Part shown: positions 42,053-61,409 of the stretch, piece after piece
How the letters are laid out: each line of letters starts with the position of its first letter
Position numbering within the stretch: the stretch's first letter is position 1
Assembly: GCF_000381265.1 (NCBI RefSeq)
Contig: NZ_KB906259.1
Location: 1 to 64,000, forward strand
Reading direction: 5' to 3'
Length of the DNA: 64,000 bases
DNA from: Curvibacter lanceolatus ATCC 14669
GTDB lineage: Bacteria; Pseudomonadota; Gammaproteobacteria; Burkholderiales; Burkholderiaceae_C
Program-made: the position numbers and the translations under genes
Notes under the pieces: model-generated
What the model was told of the DNA's origin: nothing
What the model saw: only the letters and a program-made list of their open reading frames with translations
The model's database searches: none

Positions 42053-43051
42053 ATGACGACAAGCCACCCGACCCTGAACCGCCGGCAGTTGCTGGCCCTG
42101 GCCACCGCTGCCGGCGTGGGCAGCCCCCTGCCAGCGCTGGCCCAGAGCAAATACCCAGGCGGCAAGCCGGTGACCGTGGTCGTGCCTTTTGCCGCAGGCG
42201 GCACCACCGACATCCTGGGCCGGCTGATGGCCCGCCACCTGGGCACCCGCCTGGGGGGCACCGTGATCGTGGACAACAAGGCCGGCGCCGGCGGCGGCAT
42301 CGGTGCCGCCGTGGTGGCCAAGGCCCCCGCTGACGGCTACACCTTGCTGATGGGCACCATCGGCACCCACTCGATCAACCAGTTCCTGTACAAAAAGCTG
42401 GCCTACGACCCGGCACGCGACTTCGCGCCCCTGGGCCTGGTCGCCAAGGTGCCCAACGTGCTGGTCGTGCACCCCAGCCAGCCCTACAAGACCGTGAAAG
42501 AGCTGATCGCCTACGCCAAGGCCAACCCAGGCAAGGTGACCTATGCCTCGGCCGGCAATGGCACCTCCATCCACCTGGCCGGGGCCCTGTTCGAGCAGAT
42601 GGCCCAGGTGGACATGGTGCACGTGCCCTACAAGGGCAGCGCGCCGGCCATTGCCGACCTGCTCGCCGGCCAGACCTCCTGCAGCTTCGACAACCTGCCC
42701 TCGGCCATGCCGCACATCAAGTCAGGCGCCTTGCGGGCCATTGCCGTCACCGGGTCGGCCCGCTTTCCCAGCCTGCCGCAGCTGCCCACCATCGCCGAAA
42801 GCGGCCTGCCCGGCTACGACGCCACCTCGTGGTTCGGCCTGTGGGCGCCCGCTGCCACCCCGCCCGAACTGGTGGCCCGCCTCAACGCCGAGATCAACCA
42901 GATCCTGAACCAGGTCGAAGTGCGCCAGCAGATGCTGGAGCAAGGCGCCGAAGCCGCCCCCGGCACGCCCCAGCAGTTCAGCAGCTTCATCCAGGCCGAA
43001 GCCGCCAAGTGGTCGAAAGTGGTTCAGACCGCCAACGTGCAGCTGGACTGA
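42053..43051 (+). CDS. Bug-family TTT substrate-binding protein with Tat-like signal
   Basis: A 332-aa periplasmic receptor of the tripartite tricarboxylate transporter family. The N-terminus LNRRQLLALATAAGVG fits a twin-arginine signal and ends near PALAQS. The mature protein has VTVVVPFAAGGTTDILGRL, NKAGAGGGIGAAVVAKA, MVHVPYKGSAPAIADLLAGQ and a C-terminal KWSKVVQTANVQLD. ATG 42053 is the family start; its ribosome site is weak (GAGA at about 42042). No TctAB pair is adjacent. The ligand is unknown; the neighbouring aminotransferase suggests an amino or keto acid, but this is only positional. Confidence 0.92.
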   Translation: MTTSHPTLNRRQLLALATAAGVGSPLPALAQSKYPGGKPVTVVVPFAAGGTTDILGRLMARHLGTRLGGTVIVDNKAGAGGGIGAAVVAKAPADGYTLLMGTIGTHSINQFLYKKLAYDPARDFAPLGLVAKVPNVLVVHPSQPYKTVKELIAYAKANPGKVTYASAGNGTSIHLAGALFEQMAQVDMVHVPYKGSAPAIADLLAGQTSCSFDNLPSAMPHIKSGALRAIAVTGSARFPSLPQLPTIAESGLPGYDATSWFGLWAPAATPPELVARLNAEINQILNQVEVRQQMLEQGAEAAPGTPQQFSSFIQAEAAKWSKVVQTANVQLD

Positions 43052-43075
43052 ACACCGCAATCAGCCGAGTCGGCT

Positions 43076-44077
43076 TCACCCGCCGCGCCGGGCGTAGTAG
43101 CCCAGCAGGGCCTGGGTGCTGTTGATGCCGGCCTTTTGCGCCCACTCGCGGCCGAAGCGTTCGCCCAACTGGTCCAGGGTGCGGCGCAGCTCGGCGGTGG
43201 GGGGCACCACCTGCACACGCTGTTCGGCCAATTGCTTCTTGGCCGCCTCGTCGGCGCTGCGGGCCATCTGCCAGCCCTGGGTCTCGGCCTGTTTGGCGGC
43301 CTCCAGCAGGCTCTGACGCACGGCCGGGCTGAAGCCATTCCAGACTTTTTCACTGACGCACACCATGTTCTTCGGGATCCAGGCGCGCAGGTCCACAAAG
43401 AACTTCATGTACTTCCAGGCCTGGCTGTCCACCCCAGTGGTGCTGGACGTGACCATGGCGTCCACCTGCCCGGTCTCGATGGCCTTGGAGAGGTCTTGCG
43501 CGGCGATGGTGGTGGCCGTGGCGCCCGACAGCTCGGCCAGACGCTTGGTGGCGTCGTTGTAGACGCGAAAGCGCAGGCCCTTCAGATCGCTCAACTGGTT
43601 GACCGCAATGCGGCTGTAAAGCCCTTGCCCCGGCCACGGCACGGCATACAGCACGCGCACGCCGTGCGCCAGCATCTCGTCGCCCACGGCCTTGCGCGAG
43701 GCCTCCCACATGTGGGCGGCATCATCGAAGCCACGCACGATGAAGGGCAAGGAATCGAGGGTCAGCAGCGGGTACTTGGCGCCATAGGAGGACATCAGCA
43801 CCTCGCCAAAGGCCAGTTCGCCCTTTTCGAGCGCCGGCAGCACCTCGGCCATGGGTTTGAGTTGCGAGTTCACCCCCAGCTCGACAGGCGAGCCCGCCAG
43901 CTCAGCCACACGGCGAGCGAACTGACGCAGGTTCTGGGTATGGAACACGGCGTCGCCATAAGCGCCTGAAAAACGCAGGGCGAATGCCTGGGGCTGGGCC
44001 AGGACAGAGCCACTGCCGAACAGCGCAGCCCCCCACAGCGAAGCCAGCGCCTGACGGCGCGCAATGCAATCGGACAC
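43076..44077 (-). CDS. TRAP transporter substrate-binding protein (DctP family)
   Basis: A 333-aa periplasmic receptor of TRAP transporters, which import carboxylates with sodium coupling. The start is GTG 44077, supported by GAGGG eight bases upstream. A signal with CIARRQALASLWGAALFGSG ends near VLAQ. Family features are the arginine block KGLRFRVYNDATKR and AAQDLSKAIETGQVDAMVTS. No DctQ or DctM membrane gene is adjacent, so it must work with a complex encoded elsewhere. It lies 110 bases downstream of the ABC operon on the same strand. Confidence 0.9.
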   Translation of the reverse strand: MSDCIARRQALASLWGAALFGSGSVLAQPQAFALRFSGAYGDAVFHTQNLRQFARRVAELAGSPVELGVNSQLKPMAEVLPALEKGELAFGEVLMSSYGAKYPLLTLDSLPFIVRGFDDAAHMWEASRKAVGDEMLAHGVRVLYAVPWPGQGLYSRIAVNQLSDLKGLRFRVYNDATKRLAELSGATATTIAAQDLSKAIETGQVDAMVTSSTTGVDSQAWKYMKFFVDLRAWIPKNMVCVSEKVWNGFSPAVRQSLLEAAKQAETQGWQMARSADEAAKKQLAEQRVQVVPPTAELRRTLDQLGERFGREWAQKAGINSTQALLGYYARRGG

Positions 44078-44187: not shown

Positions 44188-44887
<700 letters not shown>

Positions 44888-44895
<8 letters not shown>

Positions 44896-45691
44896 GGGCG
44901 TCTCCGTGGCCCAGGTACACGGCCTTGACCTGGGGATCGTTCGCAATCGCTTCGGGCTCGCCCTCGGTCAGCACCGTGCCATTGACCAGCACCGTCATGC
45001 GGCGGGCAAAGCTGAACACCAGGTCCATGTCGTGCTCGATCAGCAGCACCGAGACATCGGCCGGCAAGGCCGCCACGGTCTGCAGCAGTTCGTCGCGCTC
45101 CCCCGCCGGCACGCCGGCCACAGGCTCGTCCAGCAGCAGCACGCGGGGCTCACAGGCCAGGGCGATCGCCATCTCCAGCAGGCGGCGCTTGCCGTAGGCA
45201 AGCACCCGCGTGGGCTGGTGGGCCACATCGCTCAGGTGAAACTGCTCCAGCAACTGCTCGGCGCGCTCGACCACGGCGCGGTCACGGCCCAGGGCCTGCC
45301 ACCAGCGGCCGCCCTGGCCGCGGTGCTGCGACACCACCAGGCTCAGCGTCTGCAAGGGGCTCATGCTGTCGAACAACTGGTTGATCTGGAAGGTGCGCAC
45401 CAGGCCGCGCTGCACCCGCAGGTGGGGCGCCAGCGTGGTGATGTCCTGCCCGTCCAGCCACACACTGCCCTCGGACGGGGCCAGCACGCCGGTGAGCTGG
45501 TTGATCAAGGTGGTTTTGCCAGCGCCATTGGGGCCGATCAGTGCATGGCGGGCCCCCTGGCGCAGCTGCAGCGACACCTGGTTGGTGGCGGTGATGCCGC
45601 CAAAGCGCATCACCAGCGAGCGCGTCTCCAGCACCACCGGCGCTTCGGCCCGGGTGCTCTCGGCAATGGCTTCGTAGTAGGCGGCGCTCAT
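44888..45691 (-). CDS. livG: Branched-chain amino acid ABC transporter ATPase LivG-type
   Basis: The larger Liv ATPase, 267 aa. It has an N-terminal extension of about 20 residues, then LVMRFGGITATNQVSLQL, Walker A GPNGAGKTT, a signature block LAYGKRRLLEMAIAL that replaces the usual YGQQR form, Walker B LLLDEPVAG and EHDMDLVFS. ATG 45691 overlaps the livM stop in ATGA. The frame continues far upstream inside livM as a shadow. The gene is translationally coupled within the operon. Confidence 0.93.
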
Positions 45692-46698
45692 TGCGGGCCC
45701 CCTGGCGGATGGCTGCGGCCGAACCAGGTCCAGGGGCGCAGCAGGCGCTCGCGCCCCACCAGCACCAGCAACACCAGCAACAGGCCGATCCAGAACATCC
45801 AGTACTGCGGCGTGATGGCCGACAGGCTGTCTTGCAGCAGCTTGAAGACGATGGCCCCGACGATGCCGCCGTACAGCCAACCCACCCCGCCGATCACCAG
45901 CATCAGCAACACATCAGCCGAGCGGTCGAAGGCCAGCACATCGAGCGAGGCAAAGCCCGTGGTCTGCGCCAGCAAAGCCCCGGCCGCGCCGGCCACCCCG
46001 GCGGCCACGGCGTAGATCAGCACCAGGCGCTGCACCACCGGGATGCCGATGGCCATGGCGCGCAGGCGGTTGTCGCGGATCGCCATCAAGGTGGCGCCCA
46101 AGGGCGAATGCACCAGGCGCCGCATCAGCACGAACAGCCCCAGGGCCACGCCCAGCGAGTACCAGGCCGCAACCTGGCCTGTCAGGTCGAACTCGAAGTA
46201 ACCCAGCACCGGGCCCATGATCACGCCCTGCAGGCCGTCGGCGCCCCCGGTCAGCCAGTCGAGCTTGTTGGCCAGCTCCAGCAGGATCAGCGCGGTGCCC
46301 AGGGTCACCATCAGCCGGGTCAGATCAGTGCCGCGCAGGATGGTGACGCTGCACAGCGCCCCCAGCGCGGTGCACAGTACCGTGGCCACCAGCAGGCCCA
46401 GCGTGGGGTCGGGCATGACCAGTTTGGCAAACAGGGCCGCCGAGTAGGCGCCAAAGCCGAAGAAGGCCGCATGGCCCAGCGAGACGATGCCGGTGTAGCC
46501 CAGGATCAGGTCCAGCGACATGGCAAACAAGGCCACGATGGCGATCTCGTTGATCATCAGCGCGTGCGAGGGCAGCACGGCGGGCGCGGCCAGGGCTGCG
46601 GCCCAGACCACGAACTCCCAGGCCCGGGGCCGCGAGCGGCGCAGCAGCGCAGATGACATGTCGAGAGCGGGTGTCAGAGAAGGCTTGGGGCTGGACAT
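45688..46698 (-). CDS. livM: Branched-chain amino acid ABC transporter permease LivM-type
   Basis: Inner-membrane permease of 336 aa with about nine to ten hydrophobic segments. The LivM signature GYTGIVSLGHAAFFGFGAY is present near residues 66-85 and the cytoplasmic EAA-like loop MAIRDNRLRAMAIGI in the second half. The ATG at 46698 shares a base with the livH stop (TGATG). It forms the transport channel together with LivH. Confidence 0.93.
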   Translation of the reverse strand: MSSPKPSLTPALDMSSALLRRSRPRAWEFVVWAAALAAPAVLPSHALMINEIAIVALFAMSLDLILGYTGIVSLGHAAFFGFGAYSAALFAKLVMPDPTLGLLVATVLCTALGALCSVTILRGTDLTRLMVTLGTALILLELANKLDWLTGGADGLQGVIMGPVLGYFEFDLTGQVAAWYSLGVALGLFVLMRRLVHSPLGATLMAIRDNRLRAMAIGIPVVQRLVLIYAVAAGVAGAAGALLAQTTGFASLDVLAFDRSADVLLMLVIGGVGWLYGGIVGAIVFKLLQDSLSAITPQYWMFWIGLLLVLLVLVGRERLLRPWTWFGRSHPPGGPQ

Positions 46699-47570
46699 CA
46701 GCGGCCCCCCCGGCGCGTGAACAGCCCCTGCGGGCGCCACAGAAGAATCATGATCATGAGCGTGTAGACGATGAAGGCGCCCAGCTTGGGGATGAAGTAC
46801 TTGCCCGCCACATCGGCCACGCCCAGCAGCAGCGCGGCCAGCAAGGGCCCGGTGATCGACGAGGTCCCCCCCACCGAGACCACGATCAGGAAATAAATCA
46901 TGTACTTGAGCGGGAAGGTCGGGTCCAGCCCCAGCACCTCGGCCCCCAGCGCGCCACCCAGCCCGGCCAGGCCCGAGCCCACGGCAAAGGTGAGCAGAAA
47001 GATCTGGTTCACATTGATGCCCAGGCCGGCGGCCACACGCGGGTCGTCCACCGCGGCGCGCAGCCGGCTGCCGAAGCGGGTGCGTGTGAGCACCAGCTGC
47101 AGCACCACCGTGAGCGCTGCACACACCGCGATGATGAACAGGCGGTAGTGGCCCATGCCCAGCTGCAGCAGGCCCTCGCCCAGCTCGGTGCGGCCGCGCA
47201 GCCATTCGGGCAGTTGCACGTTCTGCTGGCTGGAGCCGGCAAAGTAGTCCACCCCGGCCACCGCCATGAAGGCCAGGCCAATGGAGAACAGCACCTGGTC
47301 CAGGTGCGGCTTGCTGTACATGGGCCGGTACAAGGTGCGCTCCAGCAAGGCCCCCATCAGCCCGGCGCCCACAAAGGCCAGCGGCAGGCAGGCCAGAAAT
47401 GGCAGGCCCAGGCGCTGCATCGCCATCACGGTGATGTAGCCGCCCGCCATGGCAAAGGCGCCATGGGCCAGGTTGATGAAGTTCATCAGCCCCAGGGTCA
47501 CGGCCAGGCCCACGGCCAGCACAAACAACAGCATGCCGTAGGCCACGCCGTCAAAAAGAATCGTCAACAC
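46698..47570 (-). CDS. livH: Branched-chain amino acid ABC transporter permease LivH-type
   Basis: Inner-membrane permease of 290 aa. The family sequence GLMNFINLAHGAFAMAGGY is at about residues 27-45, and the loop AAVDDPRVAAGLGIN and the VVSVGGTSSITGPLLAALLL segment are typical. The start is GTG 47570, decided by the strong ribosome site GGGAGGTGA eight bases upstream. A terminator hairpin lies between this gene and the receptor gene, so permease and ATPase genes are likely transcribed at a lower level than the receptor. Confidence 0.93.
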   Translation of the reverse strand: MLTILFDGVAYGMLLFVLAVGLAVTLGLMNFINLAHGAFAMAGGYITVMAMQRLGLPFLACLPLAFVGAGLMGALLERTLYRPMYSKPHLDQVLFSIGLAFMAVAGVDYFAGSSQQNVQLPEWLRGRTELGEGLLQLGMGHYRLFIIAVCAALTVVLQLVLTRTRFGSRLRAAVDDPRVAAGLGINVNQIFLLTFAVGSGLAGLGGALGAEVLGLDPTFPLKYMIYFLIVVSVGGTSSITGPLLAALLLGVADVAGKYFIPKLGAFIVYTLMIMILLWRPQGLFTRRGGR

Positions 47571-47606
47571 GGCGGCTCACCTCCCGGTGGTGCTCAGTGG
47601 TCAGTC

Positions 47607-47634
47607 AAAAACCCCGCCTGCCGGCAGACCGGGG
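47607..47634 (-). terminator. Internal terminator between receptor and livHMGF
   Basis: On the minus strand CCCCGGTCTGCC pairs imperfectly with GGCAGGCGGGG and is followed by TTTTTGAC. It lies 33 bases after the receptor stop and 37 bases before livH. It probably acts as a partial terminator that gives more receptor than membrane components. Confidence 0.75.
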
Positions 47635-47667
47635 CCACGGTGCCCAGGTGGGCGGATGGGCAGGCGC

Positions 47668-48852
47668 TCAGCGCGCCTTGCCGGGGTCTTTCACGTCCTT
47701 GATCACGTCGAACTCGACGTTGTAGAGCTGGCCGTTCTTTTTCTCGACCTTGCGCAGGTACACGTTCTGCACGATGTCGCGCGTCTGCGCATCGATGAAG
47801 ACCTGGCCACGCGGGCTCTCGAAGATCTGCCCCTTCATGGCGCCCAGCAGTGCCGTGCCGTCGCCCTTGCCCTGGGTGGCCTTGAGGGCCTCGTAGATCA
47901 CGCGCATGCCGTCGTAACCGCCCACGGCCATGAAGTTGGGGCGCATGGCCGGGTTGGCCTTCTGGAAGGCTTCGACAAACTTCTTGTTGACCGGTGAGTT
48001 GTGGTCGGCCGAGTAATGGTGCGAGGTGACCACGCCCAAGGCGCCATCGCCCATGTCGTTGAGCTGGTCGTCATCGGTCACGTCGCCGGTGGCGATCAGG
48101 CGGATGCCGGCCTTGTCCATGCCGCGCTCCAGAAACTGCTTCATCACCGCGGCGCCGGCCCCCGAGGGCACGAAGACAAACAGCGCATCGGGTTTCTCGT
48201 CGCGCACCTTCTGCAGGAAGGGGGCGAAGTCGGGGTTGCGCAGCGGCACGCGCAGCGCATCCACCACCTGACCACCATTGAAGGTGAAGCGTTCCTTGAA
48301 GAACTTCTCGGCATCGATGCCCGGGCCGTAGTCCGAGACCAGGGTGACCACCTTCTTGATGCCGTTCTTGGGGGCCCAGTCGGCCATGGACACCGTCACC
48401 TGCGGCAGCGTGAAGCTGGAGCGCACGATGAAGGGCGAGGCCTGGGTGATGCTGGAGGTGGCAGCCGCCATCACCACCATCGGGGTCTTGGACTGTGTGG
48501 CGATGGGCGCGGTGGCCAGGGCCAGCGGCGTGAGGCCGAAGCCGCCCAGCACATTGACCTTCTCATTGACCACCAGCTCTTGCGCGATGCGCTTGGTCAC
48601 GTCGGGCAGACCGGTGTCGTCCTTCACGATCAGCTCGATCTTGCGGCCGGCCACGGTGTCGCCGTTCTGCGCCATGTAGAGCCGTGCCGCCGCCTCGATC
48701 TGGCGCCCGGTGGAGGCCGATTGCCCGGTCATGGGCAGGATCAGCCCGATCTTGAATTTGCCGGCGTCCTGCGCCAGGGCCGTGCCGGCCTGGGCGGCCG
48801 CCAGGGCCAGTGCAGACAGCGCCACACGCTGAAAGAATTGACGTTTTTGCAT
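47668..48852 (-). CDS. Branched-chain amino acid ABC transporter receptor (LivK-type)
   Basis: A periplasmic binding protein of type I fold, 394 aa. The signal peptide (residues 1 to about 27, ending GTALAQ) is followed by KFKIGLILPMTGQSASTGRQ. Other family features are VNVLGGFGLTPLALATAPIA and AVGGYDGMRVIYEALKATQG. ATG 48852 has GGAG eight bases upstream. It heads the operon with livHMGF on the same strand. Ligand specificity of this class covers branched-chain amino acids, amides and aromatic acids and cannot be settled here. Confidence 0.92.
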   Translation of the reverse strand: MQKRQFFQRVALSALALAAAQAGTALAQDAGKFKIGLILPMTGQSASTGRQIEAAARLYMAQNGDTVAGRKIELIVKDDTGLPDVTKRIAQELVVNEKVNVLGGFGLTPLALATAPIATQSKTPMVVMAAATSSITQASPFIVRSSFTLPQVTVSMADWAPKNGIKKVVTLVSDYGPGIDAEKFFKERFTFNGGQVVDALRVPLRNPDFAPFLQKVRDEKPDALFVFVPSGAGAAVMKQFLERGMDKAGIRLIATGDVTDDDQLNDMGDGALGVVTSHHYSADHNSPVNKKFVEAFQKANPAMRPNFMAVGGYDGMRVIYEALKATQGKGDGTALLGAMKGQIFESPRGQVFIDAQTRDIVQNVYLRKVEKKNGQLYNVEFDVIKDVKDPGKAR

Positions 48853-50141: not shown

Positions 50142-50426
50142 TCAGCCCGCCTGCCGCTTGGCCGCCCGTTCGGCCACGAAGCGGAAACCGAAACTCAGAG
50201 CGTCTTCCATGGCCTGCTCGATGCCGTGGCGCTCTTTTTCAGTCAGGTAGAACATCAGGTCCACGTCGTGGCGCACGTAGCGCGCCGGCAGCCGGTTCAG
50301 CGCCACGCAGGCCACGTCGGCCAGCATGTCGTGGGTGAACTCGGGGTATTTCTCGGAGCGGTGGCTGACTTCCTCGAACACCAGCCGCTCGTAGAAATTG
50401 TGGATCTGCTCAAAGTCGGTGCTCAT
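50142..50426 (-). CDS. ComFB-like late competence family protein
   Basis: A small 94-aa protein with the ComFB pattern: an N-terminal NFYERLVFEEV helix, HDMLADVACVALNRLPARYVRHDVDL and a C-terminal helix. The cysteine pairs of the Bacillus-type zinc site are not present; only one Cys remains. ATG 50426 has the good ribosome site AAGGAGA seven bases upstream. In other bacteria ComFB-like proteins are reported as cyclic-di-nucleotide binding, which would fit the many cyclic-di-GMP genes in this window, but that link is inference. Confidence 0.75.
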   Translation of the reverse strand: MSTDFEQIHNFYERLVFEEVSHRSEKYPEFTHDMLADVACVALNRLPARYVRHDVDLMFYLTEKERHGIEQAMEDALSFGFRFVAERAAKRQAG

Positions 50427-50545: not shown

Positions 50546-51421
50546 TCAGGCGGCCTGGCGGTCCAGGCCGAGCAGGCGCACCGCGTTGTCCTTCAGGATG
50601 CCGGGCATCACCTCGGGCTTGAAGCCGGCCACCTCGAAGTCCTTCATCCAGCGCTCGGGCGTGATCAGCGGGTAGTCGCTGCCGAACAGGATGCGGTCTT
50701 TGAGCAGGCTGTTGGCGTACTGGATCAGCTGCTTCGGAAAGTACTTGGGGCTCCAGCCCGACAGGTCGATCCAGACGTTGGGCTTGTGCGTGGCCACCGA
50801 CAGGGCTTCATCCTGCCAGGGGAAGCTCGGGTGGGCCATGACGATCTGCATGTCGGGGAAGTCGATCGCCACATCGTCCAGGTGCATGGGGTTGCTGTAC
50901 TCCAGACGCAGACCGCCGCCGCAGCGCATGCCGCTGCCGATGCCGCTGTGGCCGGTGTGGAAGATGGCGGGCAGCTTGTAGTGGTTGATCACCTCGTAGA
51001 TCGGCCAGGCCATCTTGTCGTAGGGGTGGTAGCCCTGCACCGTGGGGTGGAACTTGAAGCCTTTGATGCCGTGTTCGGTGATCAGCTTCTCGGCCTCGCG
51101 CGCGCCCATCTTGCCCTTGTGCGGGTCGATGCTGCCGAAGGCCATCATCATGTCGCTGTTGGCCTTGGCCGCCTCGGCGATCTCTTCGTTGGGGATGCGC
51201 TTGCGGCCCAGCTTGGACTCGCTGTCCACCGTGAACATCACCAGACCGATCTTGCGCTCGCGGTAGTAGGCCACGGTCTCTTCGATGGTGGGGCGGCGGT
51301 TGCTGCCGAAGTACTTGTCGGCGGCGCGGTCGTACTCCTCGCCATAGTTGTCAAAAGGGTTCCAGCAACTCACTTCGGCGTGGGTGTGGATATCGATGGC
51401 AATCAGGTTCTTGTAGTCCAT
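50546..51421 (-). CDS. Amidohydrolase-2 family metal-dependent hydrolase
   Basis: A TIM-barrel amidohydrolase of 291 aa. The metal motif HTHAE follows IAIDI at residues about 8-16, with further ligands in IFHTGHSG, MAHPSFPWQDEA and LFGSDYPL. Family members carry out decarboxylation or hydrolytic C-C cleavage of aromatic and beta-keto compounds. ATG 51421 has AGGAGA seven bases upstream. It is divergent from a crotonase-CoA ligase operon and shares an operator-like palindrome with it. A role in cleaving a 3-keto-acyl-CoA, as proposed for related hydrolases in actinobacterial phenylpropanoid clusters, is inferred. Confidence 0.88.
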   Translation of the reverse strand: MDYKNLIAIDIHTHAEVSCWNPFDNYGEEYDRAADKYFGSNRRPTIEETVAYYRERKIGLVMFTVDSESKLGRKRIPNEEIAEAAKANSDMMMAFGSIDPHKGKMGAREAEKLITEHGIKGFKFHPTVQGYHPYDKMAWPIYEVINHYKLPAIFHTGHSGIGSGMRCGGGLRLEYSNPMHLDDVAIDFPDMQIVMAHPSFPWQDEALSVATHKPNVWIDLSGWSPKYFPKQLIQYANSLLKDRILFGSDYPLITPERWMKDFEVAGFKPEVMPGILKDNAVRLLGLDRQAA

Positions 51422-51490
51422 TGACGGTCTCCTGGGGTGGATAGAAACAAGGGTTTTCACCAAGATCAAAGCGGCTTTGTTGGCTTGAAT

Positions 51491-51509
51491 TGGTTATTTT
51501 TTATAACCA
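51491..51509. promoter_or_regulatory. Palindromic operator between amidohydrolase and crotonase genes
   Basis: TGGTTATTTTTTATAACCA is a perfect inverted repeat with 7-base arms and a 5-base T spacer. It lies centrally in the 115-base divergent gap, 28 bases upstream of the crotonase ATG. Size and symmetry fit a MarR-type repressor site, but no MarR gene is in the window. Confidence 0.6.
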
Positions 51510-51536
51510 TAATCGATTCAACAACGGAACGCAATC

Positions 51537-52331
51537 ATGAACCAGACATCCTCCCACCCCGACCTTCAAATCGAATTCCACGGCGAAGAACAGCAGGTGG
51601 CCGTGTTGCGGCTGACCCGCCCTGCCAAGCGCAATGCGCTCAATGACGGGCTGATCATTGCCATCCGCAATGCCTTCGACGGCCTGCCCGAGACGGTGCG
51701 CGCCGCGGTCATCGACGGCCAGGGCCCGCACTTCTGCGCCGGCCTGGACCTGAGCGAACTCAAGGAGCGCGATGCCGGCCAGGGCGTGCACCACTCGCGC
51801 ATGTGGCATGCCGCCCTGGAGCGTGTGCAGCATGGCCCCGTGCCCGTGATCGCGGCCCTGCATGGTGCGGTGGTGGGCGGCGGCCTGGAGCTGGCCAGCG
51901 CCTGCCACATCCGCGTGGCCGACGAGACCACCTTCTACGCCCTGCCCGAAGGCTCGCGCGGCATCTTTGTGGGCGGCGGCGGTGCGGTGCGCATCCCGCG
52001 CCTGATCGGTGCGGCCCGCATGACCGACATGATGCTGACCGGCCGCGTCTACAACGCCGCCGACGGCGAGCGCATCGGCATGGCCCAGTACCTGGTGCCC
52101 GAAGGCACGGCCTTCGACAAGGCCCTGGAACTGGCCCTGCGCGTGGCCCAGAACGCCCCGCTGACCAACTACGCCCTGATGCACGCCCTGCCCCGCATTG
52201 CCGAGCAGCCGGCCGACCAGGGCTTCTTCACCGAGGCGCTGATGGCCGCGATTGCGCAAAGCGCCCCCGAGGCCAAGGACCGCGTGCGCGCCTTCCTCGA
52301 AGGCCGCGCCGACAAGGTTCGCAAAGACTGA
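51537..52331 (+). CDS. Enoyl-CoA hydratase/isomerase (crotonase) family protein
   Basis: A crotonase-fold protein, 264 aa. The oxyanion-hole regions are CAGLDLSEL and GAVVGGGLELAS. Both glutamates expected of a hydratase are kept, one in GGLELAS and one in ALPEGSRGI. It may therefore hydrate an alpha,beta-unsaturated acyl-CoA, for example a cinnamoyl-CoA made by the next gene product. It lacks clear evidence for the lyase activity of classical feruloyl-CoA hydratase/lyase. It is the first gene of the operon, and its ATG at 51537 lies close behind the palindrome. Confidence 0.9.
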   Translation: MNQTSSHPDLQIEFHGEEQQVAVLRLTRPAKRNALNDGLIIAIRNAFDGLPETVRAAVIDGQGPHFCAGLDLSELKERDAGQGVHHSRMWHAALERVQHGPVPVIAALHGAVVGGGLELASACHIRVADETTFYALPEGSRGIFVGGGGAVRIPRLIGAARMTDMMLTGRVYNAADGERIGMAQYLVPEGTAFDKALELALRVAQNAPLTNYALMHALPRIAEQPADQGFFTEALMAAIAQSAPEAKDRVRAFLEGRADKVRKD

Positions 52332-52369
52332 GCCCAACCGCCCCACCAACCACCAGCGAGCAGAAGAAC

Positions 52370-54256
52370 ATGAGCGAGACAAACCAAGCAGCGGCCCCGG
52401 CCCGCTACCGCCCCCTGGAATTCGGTGTCACCCGGGTTCAGTTGCAGCAAGGCCAGACCGGCACCCGCTACCTGCAGGCCGAGCAGTCGCTGGCGCCCCA
52501 TGCCGAGCGCATGACCGACCGGCTGCTGCACTGGGCGCAAACCCAGCCTGAACGCACCTTCATGGCCCAGCGCGTGCGCGACAGCCAGGGCCGCACCGGC
52601 GACTGGCGCCACGTGAGCTATGCCGAGGCACTGCAGACGGCAAGGCGCATCGGCCAGGCCCTGCTGAACCGGGGCCTGAGTGCCGAGCACCCGGTGGTGA
52701 TCCTCAGCGAGAACAGCCTCGAGCACGCCCTGCTGGCACTGGGCTGCGTGTATGCGGGCATCCCGCACTCGCCAGCCTCCCCGGCGTACTCGACCGTCAG
52801 CCAGGACTACGACAAGCTGCGCCATGTGATCAACACGCTCACGCCGGGCCTGGTGTTTGCCACCGAAGGCAGCCGCTTCGCCAAAGCCATCGCAGCCGCC
52901 GTGCCGGATCGGGTGGAGGTGGTGCTGGTCTCGGGCGAGGTGCCGGGCCGGGCCCACACCGCCTGGAGCGATCTGATCGCCACCGAGGCCACCGACGCGG
53001 TGGACGCGGCCATGCAGGCCACGGGGCCGGACACCATCACCAAGTTCCTGTTCACCTCGGGCTCCACCAAGCTGCCCAAGGCGGTGATCAACACCCACCG
53101 CATGTGGTGCGCCAACCAGCAGCAGATGCGCCAGTCCATGCCCGTGCTGGCCGACCCCGAGCAGCCCCCGGTGCTGATCGATTGGCTGCCCTGGAACCAC
53201 ACCTTCGGCGGCAACCACAACGTGGGCCTGACGATCTACAACGGCGGCACGCTTTACATCGACGACGGCAAGCCCACCCCGACCCTGATCGGTGAGACCC
53301 TGCGCAACCTGCGCGAGATCGCACCCACGGTGTACTTCAACGTGCCCACCGGCTTCGAGGCCATCGCCAACGCGATGAAGACCGATGAGCTGCTGCGCAA
53401 GACCCTGCTGTCACGGGTGCGCATGTTCTTCTACGCCGGGGCCGCCCTGGCCCAGCCGATCTGGGACGATCTGCACGCGGTGCAAGAGGCCGAGATCGGC
53501 GAGCGCATCGTCATGGGCACGGGCCTGGGCATGACCGAGTCGGGGCCTTTTGCCATCTTCATCACCAACCCACAGGTCAAGTCGGGCGATCTGGGCGTGC
53601 CCACCCCGGGCCTGCAGCTCAAGCTGGTGGACAGCGACGGCAAGGTCGAGGTGCGCTACCGCGGCCCCAACATCACGCCGGGCTACTGGCGCGCACCGCA
53701 AGAGACGGCCGCCCACTTCGACGACGAAGGCTTCTTCTGCAGCGGCGACGCCGTGCAGTGGATCGATGACGACGACATCCACCTGGGCCTGCGCTTTGAC
53801 GGCCGCATCGCCGAAGACTTCAAGCTGGCCACCGGCACCTTTGTGAGCGTGGGCCCGCTGCGCGCCAAGATCATCGCGGCCGGCGCTCCCTATGTGCAGG
53901 ATGCCGTGCTGACCGGGATCAACCTCAAGGAGGTGGGCGCCCTGCTCTTCCCGACCCCCGCCTGCCGCGCTCTGAGCGGCCTGCCGGCCAACGCCCCCTG
54001 GGCCGAGGTGCTGAGCAGCGCCCCGGTGCTGGAGAAGTTCCAGCAAATCATCGACGAGCTGGCCCGCCACGCCACCGGCAGCGCCAACCGCATTGCCCGT
54101 GCCGCCCTGCTGGCCGAGCCGCCCTCGATCGACCGCGGCGAAGTGACAGACAAGGGCTCGATCAACCAGCGCGCCGTGCTCAAGCACCGCGACGCCCTGG
54201 TGCAAGCCCTGCACGAGGGCAGCCTGCCCCACATCTTCCAACCTCAAGGAAACTGA
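52370..54256 (+). CDS. fcs: Feruloyl-CoA synthase-like ligase
   Basis: An ANL-family ligase of 628 aa, which is the typical length and sequence of feruloyl-CoA synthases. It activates hydroxycinnamates such as ferulate or p-coumarate to CoA esters using ATP. The phosphate loop is FTSGSTKLPK at residues 228-237, the A5 motif is GTGLGMTES, and the family segment LPWNHTFGGNHN is present. The C-terminal lysine region reads VTDKGSINQRAVL, as in this family. The substrate range is inferred from family. It follows the crotonase by 38 bases and is two bases from the SDR gene. Confidence 0.93.
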   Translation: MSETNQAAAPARYRPLEFGVTRVQLQQGQTGTRYLQAEQSLAPHAERMTDRLLHWAQTQPERTFMAQRVRDSQGRTGDWRHVSYAEALQTARRIGQALLNRGLSAEHPVVILSENSLEHALLALGCVYAGIPHSPASPAYSTVSQDYDKLRHVINTLTPGLVFATEGSRFAKAIAAAVPDRVEVVLVSGEVPGRAHTAWSDLIATEATDAVDAAMQATGPDTITKFLFTSGSTKLPKAVINTHRMWCANQQQMRQSMPVLADPEQPPVLIDWLPWNHTFGGNHNVGLTIYNGGTLYIDDGKPTPTLIGETLRNLREIAPTVYFNVPTGFEAIANAMKTDELLRKTLLSRVRMFFYAGAALAQPIWDDLHAVQEAEIGERIVMGTGLGMTESGPFAIFITNPQVKSGDLGVPTPGLQLKLVDSDGKVEVRYRGPNITPGYWRAPQETAAHFDDEGFFCSGDAVQWIDDDDIHLGLRFDGRIAEDFKLATGTFVSVGPLRAKIIAAGAPYVQDAVLTGINLKEVGALLFPTPACRALSGLPANAPWAEVLSSAPVLEKFQQIIDELARHATGSANRIARAALLAEPPSIDRGEVTDKGSINQRAVLKHRDALVQALHEGSLPHIFQPQGN

Positions 54257-54258
54257 CC

Positions 54259-55023
54259 ATGGACATCCAAGGACAAGCCGCGCTCGTCACCGGCGGCGCA
54301 TCCGGCCTGGGCGAAGCCACCGCCCGCGAACTGGCCCGACTGGGCGCCCGCGTGGCCGTGCTCGACGTGAATGCCGAACTGGCCGCCAAGGTGGCGGCCG
54401 ACATCGGCGGCATCGCCTGCGTCTGCGACATCACCAACACCGACAGCGTGCAGGCCGCGCTGGACCGGGCCACCGAGGCCCATGGCCCGGCCCGCATCCT
54501 GATGAACATCGCCGGCATCGGCACCGCCAAGCGTGTGGTGCAAAAGGACGGCAGCGCCGCGCCGCTGGAAGACTTCAGCCGCGTGGTGACGGTGAACCTG
54601 ATCGGCGCCTACAACATCAGCCGCCTGTTTGCCGCCCAATGCGCCAAGCTGAGCCCGCTGGAAGACGGCGAACGCGGCGTGATGATGTTCACCGCCTCGG
54701 TGGCCGCGTTTGACGGCCAGGTGGGCCAGCAGGCCTACAGCGCCTCCAAGGGCGGCCTGGTGGGCATGACGCTGCCGATGGCGCGCGATCTGGCGCAGCA
54801 CGGCATCCGCGTCTGCACCGTGGCGCCCGGCCTGTTCGCCACCCCGCTGATGAAGCAGTTGCCCGAGCCCGTGCAGGCCTCGCTGGCAGCCTCCATCCCC
54901 TTCCCCTCGCGCCTGGGCAAGCCCGAAGAGTTCGCGCAACTGGCCTGCCACATCGTCACCAACGGCCACCTCAATGGCGAGGTGATCCGCCTGGACGGTG
55001 CCCTGCGCATGGCGCCGCGCTGA
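54259..55023 (+). CDS. SDR-family 3-hydroxyacyl-CoA dehydrogenase-like
   Basis: A short-chain dehydrogenase of 254 aa. The cofactor motif TGGASGLG is at residues 11-18 with Asp in AVLDVN favouring NAD. The catalytic Tyr160 and Lys164 lie in YSASK, with Ser in FTASVAAF. Layout resembles type II 3-hydroxyacyl-CoA dehydrogenase (HSD10 group). In this operon it would oxidise a 3-hydroxy-phenylpropionyl-CoA formed by hydration. It starts 2 bases after fcs, and its ribosome site AAGGA lies inside the fcs end. Confidence 0.9.
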   Translation: MDIQGQAALVTGGASGLGEATARELARLGARVAVLDVNAELAAKVAADIGGIACVCDITNTDSVQAALDRATEAHGPARILMNIAGIGTAKRVVQKDGSAAPLEDFSRVVTVNLIGAYNISRLFAAQCAKLSPLEDGERGVMMFTASVAAFDGQVGQQAYSASKGGLVGMTLPMARDLAQHGIRVCTVAPGLFATPLMKQLPEPVQASLAASIPFPSRLGKPEEFAQLACHIVTNGHLNGEVIRLDGALRMAPR

Positions 55024-55069
55024 AGCGCACCCCTGAAGCCTGATTCAAATAAAACGGAGACAACACACC

Positions 55070-56065
55070 ATGAGCAACCGCCGTCAATTCATCCAGGGCC
55101 TGAGCGCCCTCGGCGCCCTGGGCAGCACCGGCCTGCTGGCCCCCAACGCCTTCGCCCAATTGGTCGAACAGTGCAAGATCTTCTACGGCTTTCCGGCCGG
55201 CAGCTCGGGCGACAGCGTGGCCCGCCGCGTGGGCGAGAAGGTGGCCGGCAGCGCTTTCAGCAAGAACGCCGCCGTGGTCGAGAACAAGCCCGGCGCCGGC
55301 GGCCGCATCGCCCTGGAGTCGCTCAAGCCCGCGCCCGCCGACGGCTCGGTGCTGGCCCTGTCACCCTTCTCGGCCCTGGCCATCTACCCGCACATCTACA
55401 GCAAGATGAACTACGAGATGAAGGACTTCGTGCCCGTCTCGATCGGCGCCGTGATGCACCACGGCCTGGCCGTGGGCCCGCTGGTGCCGGCCAGCGTGAA
55501 GACGCTGAAAGACTTCCTGGCCTGGGCCAAGGCCAACCCCAAGGACGCCAGCTATGGCTCGCCGGGCGCCGGCTCCACGCCCCACTTCCTGGGTGCCCTG
55601 CTGGGCCTGAACAGCGGCGTGGAGATGCGCCACGTGCCCTACCGAGGCTCCATCCCCGGCGTGACCGACCTGGTGGGTGGTCAGATCGCCGCCATGCTGA
55701 CGCCCAGCGGCGACTTCATCGCCAACGCCAAGGCCGGCAAGCTGCGCATCCTGGCCACCTCGGGTGAAAAACGCTCGCCCTTCCTGCCCGATGTGGCCAC
55801 CTTCGCCGAGCAGGGCTTTGCCGACCTGACCACCGAAGAGTGGTTCGGCTTCTACGCCCCGGCCAAGACCCCGGCCCCGGTGATTGCAGCCGCCAACGCC
55901 GCCATCAACGCCGCGCTCAAGGACAAGACCGTGATCGACAGCCTGGCCCTGGTCGGCCTGATTGCCCAGGGCTCCACCGCCGAAGAAATGGGCCGCTCGC
56001 AAAAGCACGAGTTCGAGCGCTGGGGCCCCCTGGTCAAGCGCATCGGGTTCAGCGCCGAATCCTGA
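55070..56065 (+). CDS. Bug-family TTT substrate-binding protein of the CoA-ligase operon
   Basis: A 331-aa periplasmic receptor. The N-terminus SNRRQFIQGLSALGAL is a twin-arginine signal ending near AFAQ. The Bug pattern shows as IFYGFPAGSSGDSVARR, NKPGAGGRIALESLK, HVPYRGSIPGVTDLVGGQ and a C-terminal RWGPLVKRIGF. ATG 55070 has GGAGAC upstream. Position inside a phenylpropanoid-type operon suggests it binds an aromatic acid, which would be an unusual ligand class for TTT receptors, though related receptors bind aromatics such as terephthalate. Confidence 0.92.
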   Translation: MSNRRQFIQGLSALGALGSTGLLAPNAFAQLVEQCKIFYGFPAGSSGDSVARRVGEKVAGSAFSKNAAVVENKPGAGGRIALESLKPAPADGSVLALSPFSALAIYPHIYSKMNYEMKDFVPVSIGAVMHHGLAVGPLVPASVKTLKDFLAWAKANPKDASYGSPGAGSTPHFLGALLGLNSGVEMRHVPYRGSIPGVTDLVGGQIAAMLTPSGDFIANAKAGKLRILATSGEKRSPFLPDVATFAEQGFADLTTEEWFGFYAPAKTPAPVIAAANAAINAALKDKTVIDSLALVGLIAQGSTAEEMGRSQKHEFERWGPLVKRIGFSAES

Positions 56066-56090
56066 TCCGCGGATCCACCGATCCCAACCC

Positions 56091-56112
56091 GGGGCCTTCG
56101 GGCCCCTTGTTG
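56091..56112 (+). terminator. Weak terminator-like hairpin between Bug and acyl-CoA dehydrogenase genes
   Basis: GGGGCC and GGCCCC close a TTCG tetraloop at 56091-56106, followed by TTGTTG rather than a full T-run. It may reduce readthrough into the next gene. Confidence 0.45.
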
Positions 56113-56138
56113 TCTCTGCCACCCTCTTTTTCTGCACC

Positions 56139-57884
56139 ATGTCTTCCTCCTACCAGCCCCGCCCTGCCGACAACGCCTTCTTGCTGTTCAACGTGCTGCA
56201 GGCGCCGCAGCAACTGGCCCCCTTGTCGGCCCTGACCGAAGCCGACCAGGCCTTGATGGAACAGGTGCTGGACGAAGCCGGCAAGTTTGTCGGCGAGGTG
56301 GTGGCCCCGCTGTCGCGCGAAGGCGACGAGATCGGCTGCCGCTGGGAGGCCGGGAGCGTCACCACGCCGCCGGGCTTTCGCGAGGCCTACCAGGCCTTTT
56401 GGCAGGCCGGCTGGCCTGCACTGGCCGGTGCCGCCGAAGACGGCGGCCAAGGCCTGCCCTGGGTGCTGGAGGGCGTGCTGTACGAATGGCTGAGCGCCGC
56501 CAACCACGGCTGGACCATGGCGCCCGGCCTGCTGCACGGCGCCTACGAATGCATCAAGCACCACGCCTCGGACGAACTCAAGGCACGCTACCTGGCCAAG
56601 GTGGCCAGCGGCGAGTGGCTGGCCACCATGTGCCTGACCGAACCCCACGCCGGCAGCGATCTGGGCCTGGTGCGCACCCAGTCCACGCCCGTGGAAGGCG
56701 GTGCCCTGCCCGGTGAACACCTCATCAACGGCAGCAAGATCTTCATCTCGGGCGGCGAACACGACCTGACCGACAACATCGTGCACCTGGTGCTGGCCCG
56801 CCTGCCCGGCGCACCGGCCGGGCCCAAGGGCCTGTCGCTGTTCCTGGCGCCCAAGTTCCTGCCCGACGGCACACGCAATGGTGCCCACTGCGACCGCATC
56901 GAAGAAAAAATGGGCCTGCATGGCAGCCCCACCTGCGTGATGCGTTTTGAAGACGCCACCGGCTGGCTGGTGGGTCAGCCCGGCGCCGGCCTGAACGCAA
57001 TGTTCGTGATGATGAACGCGGCGCGCCTGCACGTGGCCCTGCAAGGCATCGGCCTGCTCGACGCCGCCTGGCAGAAGGCCGATGCCTACGCCCACGAACG
57101 CCGCCAGATGCGGGCCCCCGGGCCCCGCCCCGCCTCGCGCGGCGACAAGGACAGCGCCGACCTGCTGATCGAGCACCCGGCCATGCGCCGCATCCTTGAT
57201 GTGCAGCGCGCCTGGATCGACGGCGGCCGCCTGCTGGCCTACCGCACCGGCCTGGCCCTGGACACGGCGCGCCACCACCCCGACGCGGCCGAGCGCGCCC
57301 AGGCCCAGCGCTGGTGCAGCCTGGTGACCCCGGTGCTGAAGGCGGCCTGGACGCACCAGGCCTTCTACGGCGCCAGCGAATGCCTGCAGGTGTTCGGCGG
57401 CCATGGCTATGTGCGCGAATGGGGCATCGAGCAGATCGTGCGGGATTCGCGGGTGGCCATGATCTACGAGGGCACCAATGAGATCCAGGCCATCGACCTG
57501 CTGCAGCGCAAGGTGCTGCCCGACGGTGGCGAGGCCTTGGGCGCCCTGCTGCTGTCGCTGCGCGCCACGCTGGACGCCAGCCGCCCATTCGATGCCGAAG
57601 TGCTGCGCCGACTGGCCGAGCTTCGCTACCTGAGCACCACCCTGGCCGCCGCCTGCGCGGCCGACCCGATGCTGGCCAGCCTGAGCGCGGACGACTACCT
57701 GCGCGCCGTGGCCCTGGTGCTGCTGGCCTGGGCCTGGGCCCAGATCGAGCACACCCCGGGGGCCGAAGCCCCGCGCTGGCAAGGCCCGCTACAGGCCCTG
57801 CAACAGCGAGTGCTGCCTGAGTTCGAGATGCGTCTGAAGATGATCCGCCAACTGATCCCGGCCACGCCCTTGCACCCGGCCTGA
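56139..57884 (+). CDS. Acyl-CoA dehydrogenase (large DmdC-like form)
   Basis: An FAD acyl-CoA dehydrogenase of 581 aa, the long form with an extra C-terminal domain as in the DmdC group. Recognisable are MCLTEPHAGSDLGLVRT, NGSKIFISGGEHDL, KMGLHGSPTCVMRFEDA and FGGHGYVREWGIEQIVRDSR. The catalytic base should be the Glu in IYEGTNEIQ. In a side-chain pathway it could oxidise a saturated phenylpropionyl-CoA to the cinnamoyl-CoA, as the ACAD member of comparable phenylpropanoid clusters does. It lies 73 bases after the Bug gene on the same strand, behind a weak hairpin. Confidence 0.92.
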   Translation: MSSSYQPRPADNAFLLFNVLQAPQQLAPLSALTEADQALMEQVLDEAGKFVGEVVAPLSREGDEIGCRWEAGSVTTPPGFREAYQAFWQAGWPALAGAAEDGGQGLPWVLEGVLYEWLSAANHGWTMAPGLLHGAYECIKHHASDELKARYLAKVASGEWLATMCLTEPHAGSDLGLVRTQSTPVEGGALPGEHLINGSKIFISGGEHDLTDNIVHLVLARLPGAPAGPKGLSLFLAPKFLPDGTRNGAHCDRIEEKMGLHGSPTCVMRFEDATGWLVGQPGAGLNAMFVMMNAARLHVALQGIGLLDAAWQKADAYAHERRQMRAPGPRPASRGDKDSADLLIEHPAMRRILDVQRAWIDGGRLLAYRTGLALDTARHHPDAAERAQAQRWCSLVTPVLKAAWTHQAFYGASECLQVFGGHGYVREWGIEQIVRDSRVAMIYEGTNEIQAIDLLQRKVLPDGGEALGALLLSLRATLDASRPFDAEVLRRLAELRYLSTTLAAACAADPMLASLSADDYLRAVALVLLAWAWAQIEHTPGAEAPRWQGPLQALQQRVLPEFEMRLKMIRQLIPATPLHPA

Positions 57885-60410: not shown

Positions 60411-61409
60411 TCACTGGGGCTGCAGCTGGATGGTTTTGGCCAGGGCCCTGAATTGGGCCGTGCCGTCGGTGTAGGCCTGGGCGGCCTCCTGCAGGCTCAG
60501 GGGGCGTGACACCTGCTGGCTCTGGGCCTCCAGGCCGGCGCGCACGGCCGGGTCGGACAGGGTGGCGGTGAGGGCCTTGTACAAGACCTGCACGACCGGC
60601 TCGGGCGTGTCCTTGCGCACGAAGTAGCCGGTCCAGATCTTGTAGCTGAAGTCTTTCAGCGCCCGGCTCTCGCGCAGCGTGGGCACCTGCTTGAGGCCCT
60701 CCAGCCGCTCCTCGCTGAGGGTGGCGACAAACTTGAGGCGCCCCTGCTGCGCCATCTCGAGCTGGGCCTTGCCGAACACGGTGATGAAGATGTCCACCTG
60801 CCCGCCCATCAGGTCGGTGAAGGCCGGTGCCGCGCCCTTGTAAGGCACATGGGTCATGGGCACGCCCAGGGTGTGAGACATGTGCTCGCCCATGAAATGG
60901 TAGAACGAGCCCGGCCCCACGCTGGCATAGGTGAGAGGGCGCCCCTCGCGCGCCATGCGGGCCGCGTAGGCGGCCAGTTCGTCGCCATTGCTGACGGGCA
61001 GATCGGCGCGGGCAATGACGGCCAGCGGGGCCACCGAAATCATCTGCAGCAGGCGGAAGTCTTCGCTCTTGAACTTGACAGCCGCATTGGCCAGTGGCGA
61101 CAGGATCAGCTCATTGGGCGAGCCCTGAAAAAGCAGGTAACCGTCGGCCGGCGCGCTCAGGGTCTTCTGGGCGGCAATCGCGCCGCTGACCCCGCCCAGG
61201 TTCTCGACCACCACGGGCTGCCCCAAATGCTTGCCCAGCGCCGTGTTCACCGTGCGGGCGATCACATCAGACACCCCACCCGCCGGGTACGGCACCATCA
61301 GCGTGACAGGGCGCTGCGGAAAGCTCTGGGCCCAGCTGCCGCCAGCCAGGGTCAGGGCCGCCAGGGCCAGGCCGGTTTTCAGGGACGCACGACGAAGAAG
61401 CGATTTCAT
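60411..61409 (-). CDS. Bug-family TTT substrate-binding protein linked to M20 hydrolase
   Basis: A 332-aa periplasmic receptor with a Sec signal (residues 1 to about 28, ending SWAQ). The mature protein opens QRPVTLMVPYPAGGVSDVIA, with VVENLGGVSGAIAAQK and MTHVPYKGAAPAFTDLMGGQ. ATG 61409 has AAGGA nine bases upstream. It precedes the M20 hydrolase gene in a tight pair and is divergent from a LysR gene, which probably controls both. The ligand is likely the hydrolase substrate, by position. Confidence 0.92.
   Translation of the reverse strand: MKSLLRRASLKTGLALAALTLAGGSWAQSFPQRPVTLMVPYPAGGVSDVIARTVNTALGKHLGQPVVVENLGGVSGAIAAQKTLSAPADGYLLFQGSPNELILSPLANAAVKFKSEDFRLLQMISVAPLAVIARADLPVSNGDELAAYAARMAREGRPLTYASVGPGSFYHFMGEHMSHTLGVPMTHVPYKGAAPAFTDLMGGQVDIFITVFGKAQLEMAQQGRLKFVATLSEERLEGLKQVPTLRESRALKDFSYKIWTGYFVRKDTPEPVVQVLYKALTATLSDPAVRAGLEAQSQQVSRPLSLQEAAQAYTDGTAQFRALAKTIQLQPQ

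Follow-up and report, generated by a model that had tools for sequence, protein, structure and literature searches.

Gene layout and enzyme families

The first 64,000 nucleotides of contig NZ_KB906259.1 (C7:1-64000, hereafter the window) in the Curvibacter lanceolatus ATCC 14669 genome (6.83 Mb, 72 contigs) carry six genes grouped around one divergent palindrome: an amidohydrolase (AH), a crotonase (ECH), a feruloyl-CoA synthase-type ligase (FCS), an SDR, a Bug solute-binding protein (BUG) and an acyl-CoA dehydrogenase (ACAD) (Table 1). All six are full-length open reading frames of the stated families, and positions, domain matches and the divergent transcription of the hydrolase agree with the original prediction for this DNA. 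That prediction also proposed CoA-dependent side-chain degradation as in the actinobacterial cou and phd clusters. Homology, gene context and the absence of a recognised lyase support this reading, and we consider it likely that the cluster deacetylates hydroxycinnamates such as ferulate and p-coumarate by the CoA-dependent beta-oxidative route.

In the route that we infer, FCS would make hydroxycinnamoyl-CoA, ECH would hydrate it to a beta-hydroxy thioester, the SDR would oxidise this to a beta-keto thioester and AH would hydrolyse the latter to acetyl-CoA and the free hydroxybenzoate, which would make both a thiolase and an aldehyde dehydrogenase dispensable. ACAD, presumably acting on phenylpropanoyl-CoA, probably admits saturated (dihydro) phenylpropanoids. 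A CouR-like MarR protein would occupy the divergent palindrome until released by hydroxycinnamoyl-CoA, and uptake would proceed by the Bug protein, by an upstream Liv-type transporter or by both.

Table 1. Features of the cluster and its surroundings (positions in the window)
Feature	Position	Strand	Basis or remark
AH: Amidohydrolase_2 protein, proposed 3-oxo-3-arylpropanoyl-CoA hydrolase (CouO/PhdC-like)	50546-51424	-	PF04909, 163.5 bits
ECH: crotonase, proposed hydroxycinnamoyl-CoA hydratase	51537-52331	+	NCBIfam PRK08150, PDB relatives, glutamates
FCS: feruloyl-CoA synthase-type ligase	52370-54256	+	PF00501 (AMP-binding), PRK12582
SDR, type II 3-hydroxyacyl-CoA dehydrogenase family	54259-55023	+	PDB matches
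BUG: TctC/Bug solute-binding protein with Tat signal	55070-56065	+	PF03401, 169.4 bits; TIGR01409, 20.8 bits (cut-off 16.7)
ACAD: acyl-CoA dehydrogenase, proposed entry point for saturated phenylpropanoyl-CoA	56139-57884	+	PDB matches
Divergent palindrome, proposed MarR operator	51485-51521, core 51491-51509		between AH and ECH
Sigma-70-like promoter TTGAAT-17-CATAAT, palindrome core inside spacer	51485-51513	+	9 of 12 hexamer positions match
Liv-type ABC transporter (2 ATPases, 2 permeases, binding protein at 47668-48852)	44188-48852	-	upstream; rival or additional uptake

With 422 bits against a cut-off of 232, the crotonase falls within NCBIfam PRK08150. In the PDB it comes closest to 3hin (322.8 bits) and next to 4izb (229.8 bits), the latter presumably DmdD. 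HCHL enzymes, which are hydratase-lyases, carry a serine at the first glutamate position. The window ECH keeps both glutamates, and of the 98 crotonases in relative loci that reach 240 residues, all have the first motif, GGG-x-E, and 92 the second under a strict pattern. DmdD likewise retains both enoyl-CoA hydratase catalytic glutamates, and the R. palustris structure 3HIN served as search model for its structure (PMC3660561; here and below, literature statements follow the available passages of the papers cited). The HCHL model NF006588 gave 31 matches in the genome, none above its cut-off of 276, and the window ECH scored 74.7 bits. Going by its sequence, we assign ECH to the hydratases and not to the hydratase-lyases.

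It thus appears very improbable that the cluster follows a non-beta-oxidative route in which ECH, as a hydratase-lyase, would release vanillin or 4-hydroxybenzaldehyde for oxidation by an aldehyde dehydrogenase encoded elsewhere. Many aldehyde dehydrogenases are indeed present in the genome, and the best PDB relative of ECH comes from R. palustris, a reported non-beta-oxidative user whose cou cluster was assigned to that route (PMC3610893); 3hin itself may or may not be the cou hydratase. Against this stand the two glutamates shared with DmdD and a 3-hydroxyacyl-CoA dehydrogenase and an AH that would be without a role in such a route. The vanillin-releasing lyase that the original prediction had named as the finding that would overturn it has no HCHL-family match above cut-off anywhere in the genome, and the window has no match to the aldehyde dehydrogenase family (PF00171), in line with the predicted lack of a vanillin dehydrogenase in the cluster.

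FCS matches PRK12582 with 713.8 bits, under that model's cut-off of 777, and is 48.3% identical to an annotated feruloyl-CoA synthase on a plasmid of Rhizobium sp. Q54; by homology it qualifies as a hydroxycinnamoyl-CoA ligase. The best PDB matches of the SDR are 3tl3 (260.2 bits), 4xgn (252.9 bits) and 1e6w (249.8 bits), within a group of 16 PDB sequences at 214-260 bits that are mostly named 3-hydroxyacyl-CoA dehydrogenase, after which the next score drops to 121. For ACAD the closest PDB entries are 8pns (451 bits) and, at 391.7 bits, 6ijc, the latter presumably a DmdC. The resemblance of ECH to DmdD and of ACAD to 6ijc made DMSP/methylmercaptopropionate degradation a candidate, which was rejected because FCS, SDR and AH do not fit it.

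AH is 58.4% identical to a protein of the same Rhizobium plasmid annotated as 4-hydroxyphenyl-beta-ketoacyl-CoA hydrolase, and its closest named relatives among the matches listed, from which the source genome's own records were possibly excluded, are Curvibacter records. NCBIfam models gave no match to it, and its PDB relative 3irs (90.1 bits) is distant and of unknown function. Its motifs D-x-H-x-H, GFK(F/L)HP, AHPS(F/W)PW and GSD(Y/F)P, which are likely metal motifs, occur in every one of the 99 relatives that are 280 residues or longer, and HTGHS in 94 of these. Family, motifs and context lead us to propose that AH is an amidohydrolase-type beta-keto thioester hydrolase, the likeness to CouO and PhdC being drawn from their descriptions. 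Its predicted structure is of moderate quality (mean pLDDT 70.8), and the fold matches, most of the 50 shown being decarboxylases, do not settle the reaction. A second, distant AH match lies in the source genome at C33:32390-35058 (L080), in two pieces, one of them with a stop, and adjoins a thiolase and a crotonase-bearing open reading frame.

Occurrence in relatives and conservation of the amidohydrolase

As the original prediction had suggested, we searched relatives for co-occurrence of these genes. Among 100 genomes (the source genome and 99 relatives; relatedness is uncorrected in the co-occurrence statistics), FCS was found in 40 (E 1e-100), AH in 27 (1e-90) and a MarR family that accompanies the cluster in 29 (1e-22). 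FCS was present in 26 of the 27 AH genomes (Fisher p 7e-13; 18/18 without nine same-genus genomes) and in 28 of the 29 MarR genomes (Fisher p 3e-14; 20/20 without these nine), the sole exception for both pairs being the same 600-contig assembly (G003).

At the level of loci, a protein search of species genomes, of which the best 80 of at least 589 relative stretches (at least 594 stretches in all) were kept, yielded 52 AH-selected loci that are 18 kb or longer, with FCS in 51, ECH in 51, SDR in 49, BUG in 23, ACAD in 21 and all six genes in 15. The corresponding counts for 37 FCS-selected stretches (out of 42 FCS places outside the window; some contigs are short and the species overlap with the AH-selected set) were 33 for ECH, 24 for SDR, 19 for AH, 12 for ACAD, 10 for BUG and 4 for all six. 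These counts make AH-ECH-FCS-SDR a conserved core, of which the six-gene set is one variant found in some loci.

Dereplication of the FCS loci that span 12 kb or more left 85, whose flanks often stop before the end of the cluster, with SDR in 71, AH in 69, BUG in 42, a 4HBT thioesterase in 39, the Liv-type binding protein livK2 in 35, and a thiolase, MarR and ACAD in 31 each. For the thioesterase, MarR, thiolase, MetE-like, CoA transferase, tannase and VanA families one member each was scanned, and the labels livK2, livH2, livM2, livF, DctP, HxlR, GntR and DnaK were, for relatives, read from the sequences. The thioesterase was found in 25 of the 31 loci with a thiolase versus 14 of the 54 without (Fisher p about 1e-6). 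The window has no match to the thiolase family (PF00108), of which there are many elsewhere in the genome, and no 4HBT thioesterase, which would fit direct release of the free acid by the cleaving enzyme. The predicted lack of a thiolase therefore holds for the window and not for this type of cluster, given its 31 thiolase-bearing loci. AH and thiolase as simple alternatives were rejected, no association being found in the 85 loci (p 0.25); the 30 FCS-selected loci (2 with AH and thiolase, 12 with AH only, 8 with thiolase only, 8 with neither; p 0.058) give a hint only.

These loci also bear on whether a thiolase encoded elsewhere cleaves the beta-keto thioester while AH does another job, such as decarboxylation, which we regard as quite unlikely. 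AH is also present in 23 of the 31 loci with a thiolase, thiolase and thioesterase tend to occur together, and the decarboxylases among the fold matches of AH would suit such a division of labour. On the other side, the window has neither of the two genes, 33 of the 69 AH loci show neither (flanks may end early), and the annotated relative of AH is a beta-ketoacyl-CoA hydrolase.

AH is much more conserved than its neighbours in the cluster. In FCS-selected loci, median protein identity to the window was 91.3% for AH (16 loci) versus 71.9% for FCS (18 loci), while the medians at fourfold sites (rows at least 99% identical and short alignments dropped) were 71.7% for AH (n=16), 62.7% for FCS (18), 65.2% for ECH (17) and 69.7% for SDR (14). 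Horizontal spread as the cause was rejected, since the fourfold-site identity of AH is close to that of its neighbours; because these sites diverged about alike, we favour constraint as the explanation. Set against DnaK, which was identified by eye, the identities were 93.0% for AH and 90.4% for DnaK (35 pairs, 9 loci), with 72.8% for FCS and 77.1% for ECH (20 pairs); this comparison is biased because most of these loci were chosen by AH similarity. The unusual conservation of AH calls for explanation. We would put forward only tentatively that AH is a general beta-keto-aroyl-CoA hydrolase and the constant part around which a phenylpropanoid module has formed throughout the Comamonadaceae. Constraint on AH is much stronger than on FCS, ECH and SDR, many loci keep it alongside a thiolase, and together with ACAD it would let a single cluster accept saturated as well as unsaturated phenylpropanoids, with uptake being exchanged. 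In this tentative reading, a second role might also account for the constraint.

The divergent palindrome and its candidate regulator

The palindrome has 13-nt arms that are 85% complementary, with a perfect 7-bp core, TGGTTAT-N5-ATAACCA, that occurs once in the window and in 0 of 100 shuffles. The pattern GGTTAT-N3-8-ATAACC is found at a single place in the 6.83-Mb genome; since a reversed control pattern also gives one match per strand, rarity alone proves little. Conservation across relatives is the better evidence. Out of 118 stretches, 88 loci with a divergent AH-ECH pair supplied 84 unique intergenic regions, which are not 84 independent events because the loci are related; TTAT-N5-ATAA is kept in 81 of them (mean of 0.38 in shuffled copies) and GTTAT-N5-ATAAC in 74, while the exact 7-bp core of the window is found in 13 of the 88 loci. 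Across 1.89 Mb of loci, 85 of the 88 occurrences of GTTAT-N5-ATAAC lie no more than 400 bases from where AH or ECH starts. The promoter-like pair TTGAAT/CATAAT brackets the core; shuffles average 0.3 such pairs (sd 0.6), which makes it weak when taken alone. An operator within a promoter spacer would be an arrangement suited to a repressor.

The MarR family that accompanies the cluster has as its nearest PDB entry CouR, 6c28 (76.5 bits, with a query from the relative locus L059), presumably from R. palustris. In several relatives (such as L101, L106, L136 and L160), the cluster is immediately followed by MarR and an HxlR-like gene. In the source genome, a CouR-like MarR match followed by an HxlR-like gene lies about 9 kb downstream on the same contig, beyond the window, and MarR stands about 9-10 kb past ACAD there as well as in three same-genus genomes (G002, G005 and G006). 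Co-occurrence and the CouR precedent lead us to propose that this MarR acts at the palindrome, and the cluster would then offer a testable regulator-operator pair.

Several observations, besides the R. palustris origin of the structure nearest to ECH, weigh against the proposed pathway or its regulation. The MarR match of the source genome is split over two frames (C7:67010-67240 and 67221-67448), so that the frame is interrupted in the assembly, and none of the MarR genes examined has TTAT-N5-ATAA upstream of it. Each of the eight other same-genus genomes (G001-G008) has one MarR match without a stop; the interruption may be either an assembly error or a true loss of the repressor and, if real, would make the operon constitutive. 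At the threshold used, 14 of the 40 FCS genomes have no AH. The AH family, moreover, is not confined to this cluster, because homologues sit elsewhere: one on a P. putida plasmid (L170, 277-8867), at 72% identity nearer to AH than the Rhizobium homologues, lies with biotin carboxylase subunits and an acetoacetate-CoA ligase, a context that raises another possible substrate for the family, and one on an R. opacus plasmid lies with AMP-binding, SDR and MaoC genes. Delftia acidovorans belongs to the same family as Curvibacter. It uses mainly the non-beta-oxidative route, according to a title in the reference list of PMC3610893.

The same chemistry might also serve another main substrate, such as non-phenolic cinnamates, phenylpropionates or another aryl-propenoate, 'feruloyl' being merely the family name of the ligase. 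The score of FCS under the PRK12582 cut-off, the pointer of ACAD to saturated acids and the terephthalate-binding relatives of BUG (see below) would suit this idea, which we nevertheless judge unlikely: MarR is nearest to CouR, and some relatives' stretches carry tannase/feruloyl esterase (17 loci) or VanA (15 loci) family genes (118 stretches, before dereplication). Two VanA-like matches (44 and 42%) lie elsewhere in the source genome, the first with an internal stop.

Uptake and comparison with known systems

The best PDB relatives of BUG are terephthalate-binding proteins (8hka, 182.9 bits), which suggests an aromatic acid as ligand and does not speak for ferulate specifically. No TctA permease lies beside BUG in the window, and the sole match in the genome, at C7:297755-299020, lies some 240 kb from it. 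Near the cluster (42053-43948 and 60411-61409) there are another two Bug receptors as well as a DctP protein; the search for permease genes covered TctA, which is absent from the window. The binding protein of the complete upstream Liv-type transporter has its best PDB matches in 4ey3, 4eyg and 4eyk (519.3 bits), whose ligands are, we assume, of the hydroxybenzoate type; its predicted structure was poor (mean pLDDT 43.5) and was not used. A homologue occurs in 12 other loci (not dereplicated). A glucokinase and a ComFB-like gene separate this transporter from the cluster. The small ComFB-family gene (50142-50426) lies between glucokinase and AH, and its family adjoins AH in 8 loci, the window included.

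In relatives, the place behind the SDR is taken by a Bug protein in some and by a Liv-type transporter in others. The 85 loci comprise 10 with both BUG and livK2, 25 with livK2 only, 32 with Bug only and 18 with neither (p 0.002): the two binding proteins tend to exclude each other, and Bug is an exchangeable uptake module. The idea that the cluster has a TTT receptor of its own is thereby not sustained, given this exchange, the distant TctA and the complete Liv-type transporter upstream. A TctC-type receptor gene is present, as predicted; its part in uptake is putative.

The most telling evidence from elsewhere is the Rhizobium sp. Q54 plasmid, which combines these five enzymes with MarR and on which ACAD, a 3-hydroxy-2-methylbutyryl-CoA dehydrogenase and the feruloyl-CoA synthase are divergent from an enoyl-CoA hydratase, a MarR gene and the 4-hydroxyphenyl-beta-ketoacyl-CoA hydrolase, followed by a TRAP transporter; the remaining identities to the window are 55.3% for SDR, 54.7% for ECH and 38.7% for ACAD. 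AH, ECH, FCS and MarR also lie close together on five other alphaproteobacterial plasmids, those of Rhizobium TH2, Phaeobacter G2, Terrarubrum, Peteryoungia and Paracoccus, with no SDR in the Terrarubrum stretch and a ligase annotated in two pieces in Paracoccus; eight of the 40 records listed among 99 AH matches were examined, picked partly for a named MarR, so that six of eight is not a frequency. The operator motif of the window differs from the Rhizobium intergenic sequences: TTAT-N5-ATAA is absent from two Rhizobium clusters, while one is present in the Phaeobacter cluster.

A characterised counterpart is the SpG8-1b cluster of A. fabrum (Atu1415-Atu1422), in which a feruloyl-CoA synthase, an enoyl-CoA hydratase, a phenylhydroxypropionyl-CoA dehydrogenase and a beta-keto-CoA cleaving enzyme turn ferulate into vanillate under the MarR repressor HcaR (PMC7797058, PMC10458429). 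Two of its transcription units, atu1415-atu1416 and atu1421-hcaR, have their counterparts in the SDR-FCS and MarR-AH pairs on the Rhizobium Q54 plasmid. Atu1421 is named a beta-keto-thiolase there (PMC7797058), unlike the amidohydrolase of the window; by analogy with Rhizobium Q54, it may be an amidohydrolase as well. The window further differs in that MarR does not stand beside the hydrolase and in that the cluster is without a vanillate O-demethylase.

In actinobacteria, the amidohydrolase-superfamily enzyme CouO performs the last step under MarR control in Rhodococcus jostii RHA1 (PMC4737184), and PhdA, PhdE, PhdB and PhdC of Corynebacterium glutamicum provide the same four steps, namely ligase, hydratase, 3-hydroxyacyl-CoA dehydrogenase and 3-oxoacyl-CoA ketohydrolase (PMC5479773). 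We compared these systems by their descriptions; C. glutamicum, unlike the window, takes up its substrates via the transporter PhdT. A proteome of S. scabies on ferulate medium includes four proteins whose locus tags are consecutive, namely a hydratase, a feruloyl-CoA synthetase, an amidohydrolase and a dehydrogenase (PMC6904314), and the piperine pathway of R. ruber employs similar enzymes (PMC12753220).

The cou system of R. palustris (CouA, CouB, CouR, CouPSTU, TarPQM) shares with the window the source of the structure nearest to ECH and the regulator nearest to MarR, and its ABC and TRAP uptake systems are likewise clustered with the enzymes; it differs in its assignment to a non-beta-oxidative route (PMC3610893). 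Within the betaproteobacteria, ferulate degradation by hcaABC of Cupriavidus basilensis B-8 also begins with a feruloyl-CoA synthase, but HCHL and vanillin dehydrogenase are assigned there, the genes are dispersed, and 'amidohydrolase' occurs nowhere in the available text (PMC3560178). In the open-access literature, by a search that was not exhaustive, we recognised no paper that describes the amidohydrolase route experimentally for Burkholderiales.

If our reading is true, the beta-oxidative route with an amidohydrolase, which has been described in actinobacteria and in Agrobacterium, would be a widespread trait of Comamonadaceae, the records of relatives being named Limnohabitans, Hydrogenophaga, Polaromonas, Ramlibacter and Curvibacter, among others, and ferulate degradation in this family should therefore not be assumed to pass via vanillin. 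The combination had been thought little described; its core is, however, common in the family, and its enzymes are those of the characterised Agrobacterium pathway. The cluster is thus a well-supported addition to a known route of two-carbon shortening rather than a new mechanism.

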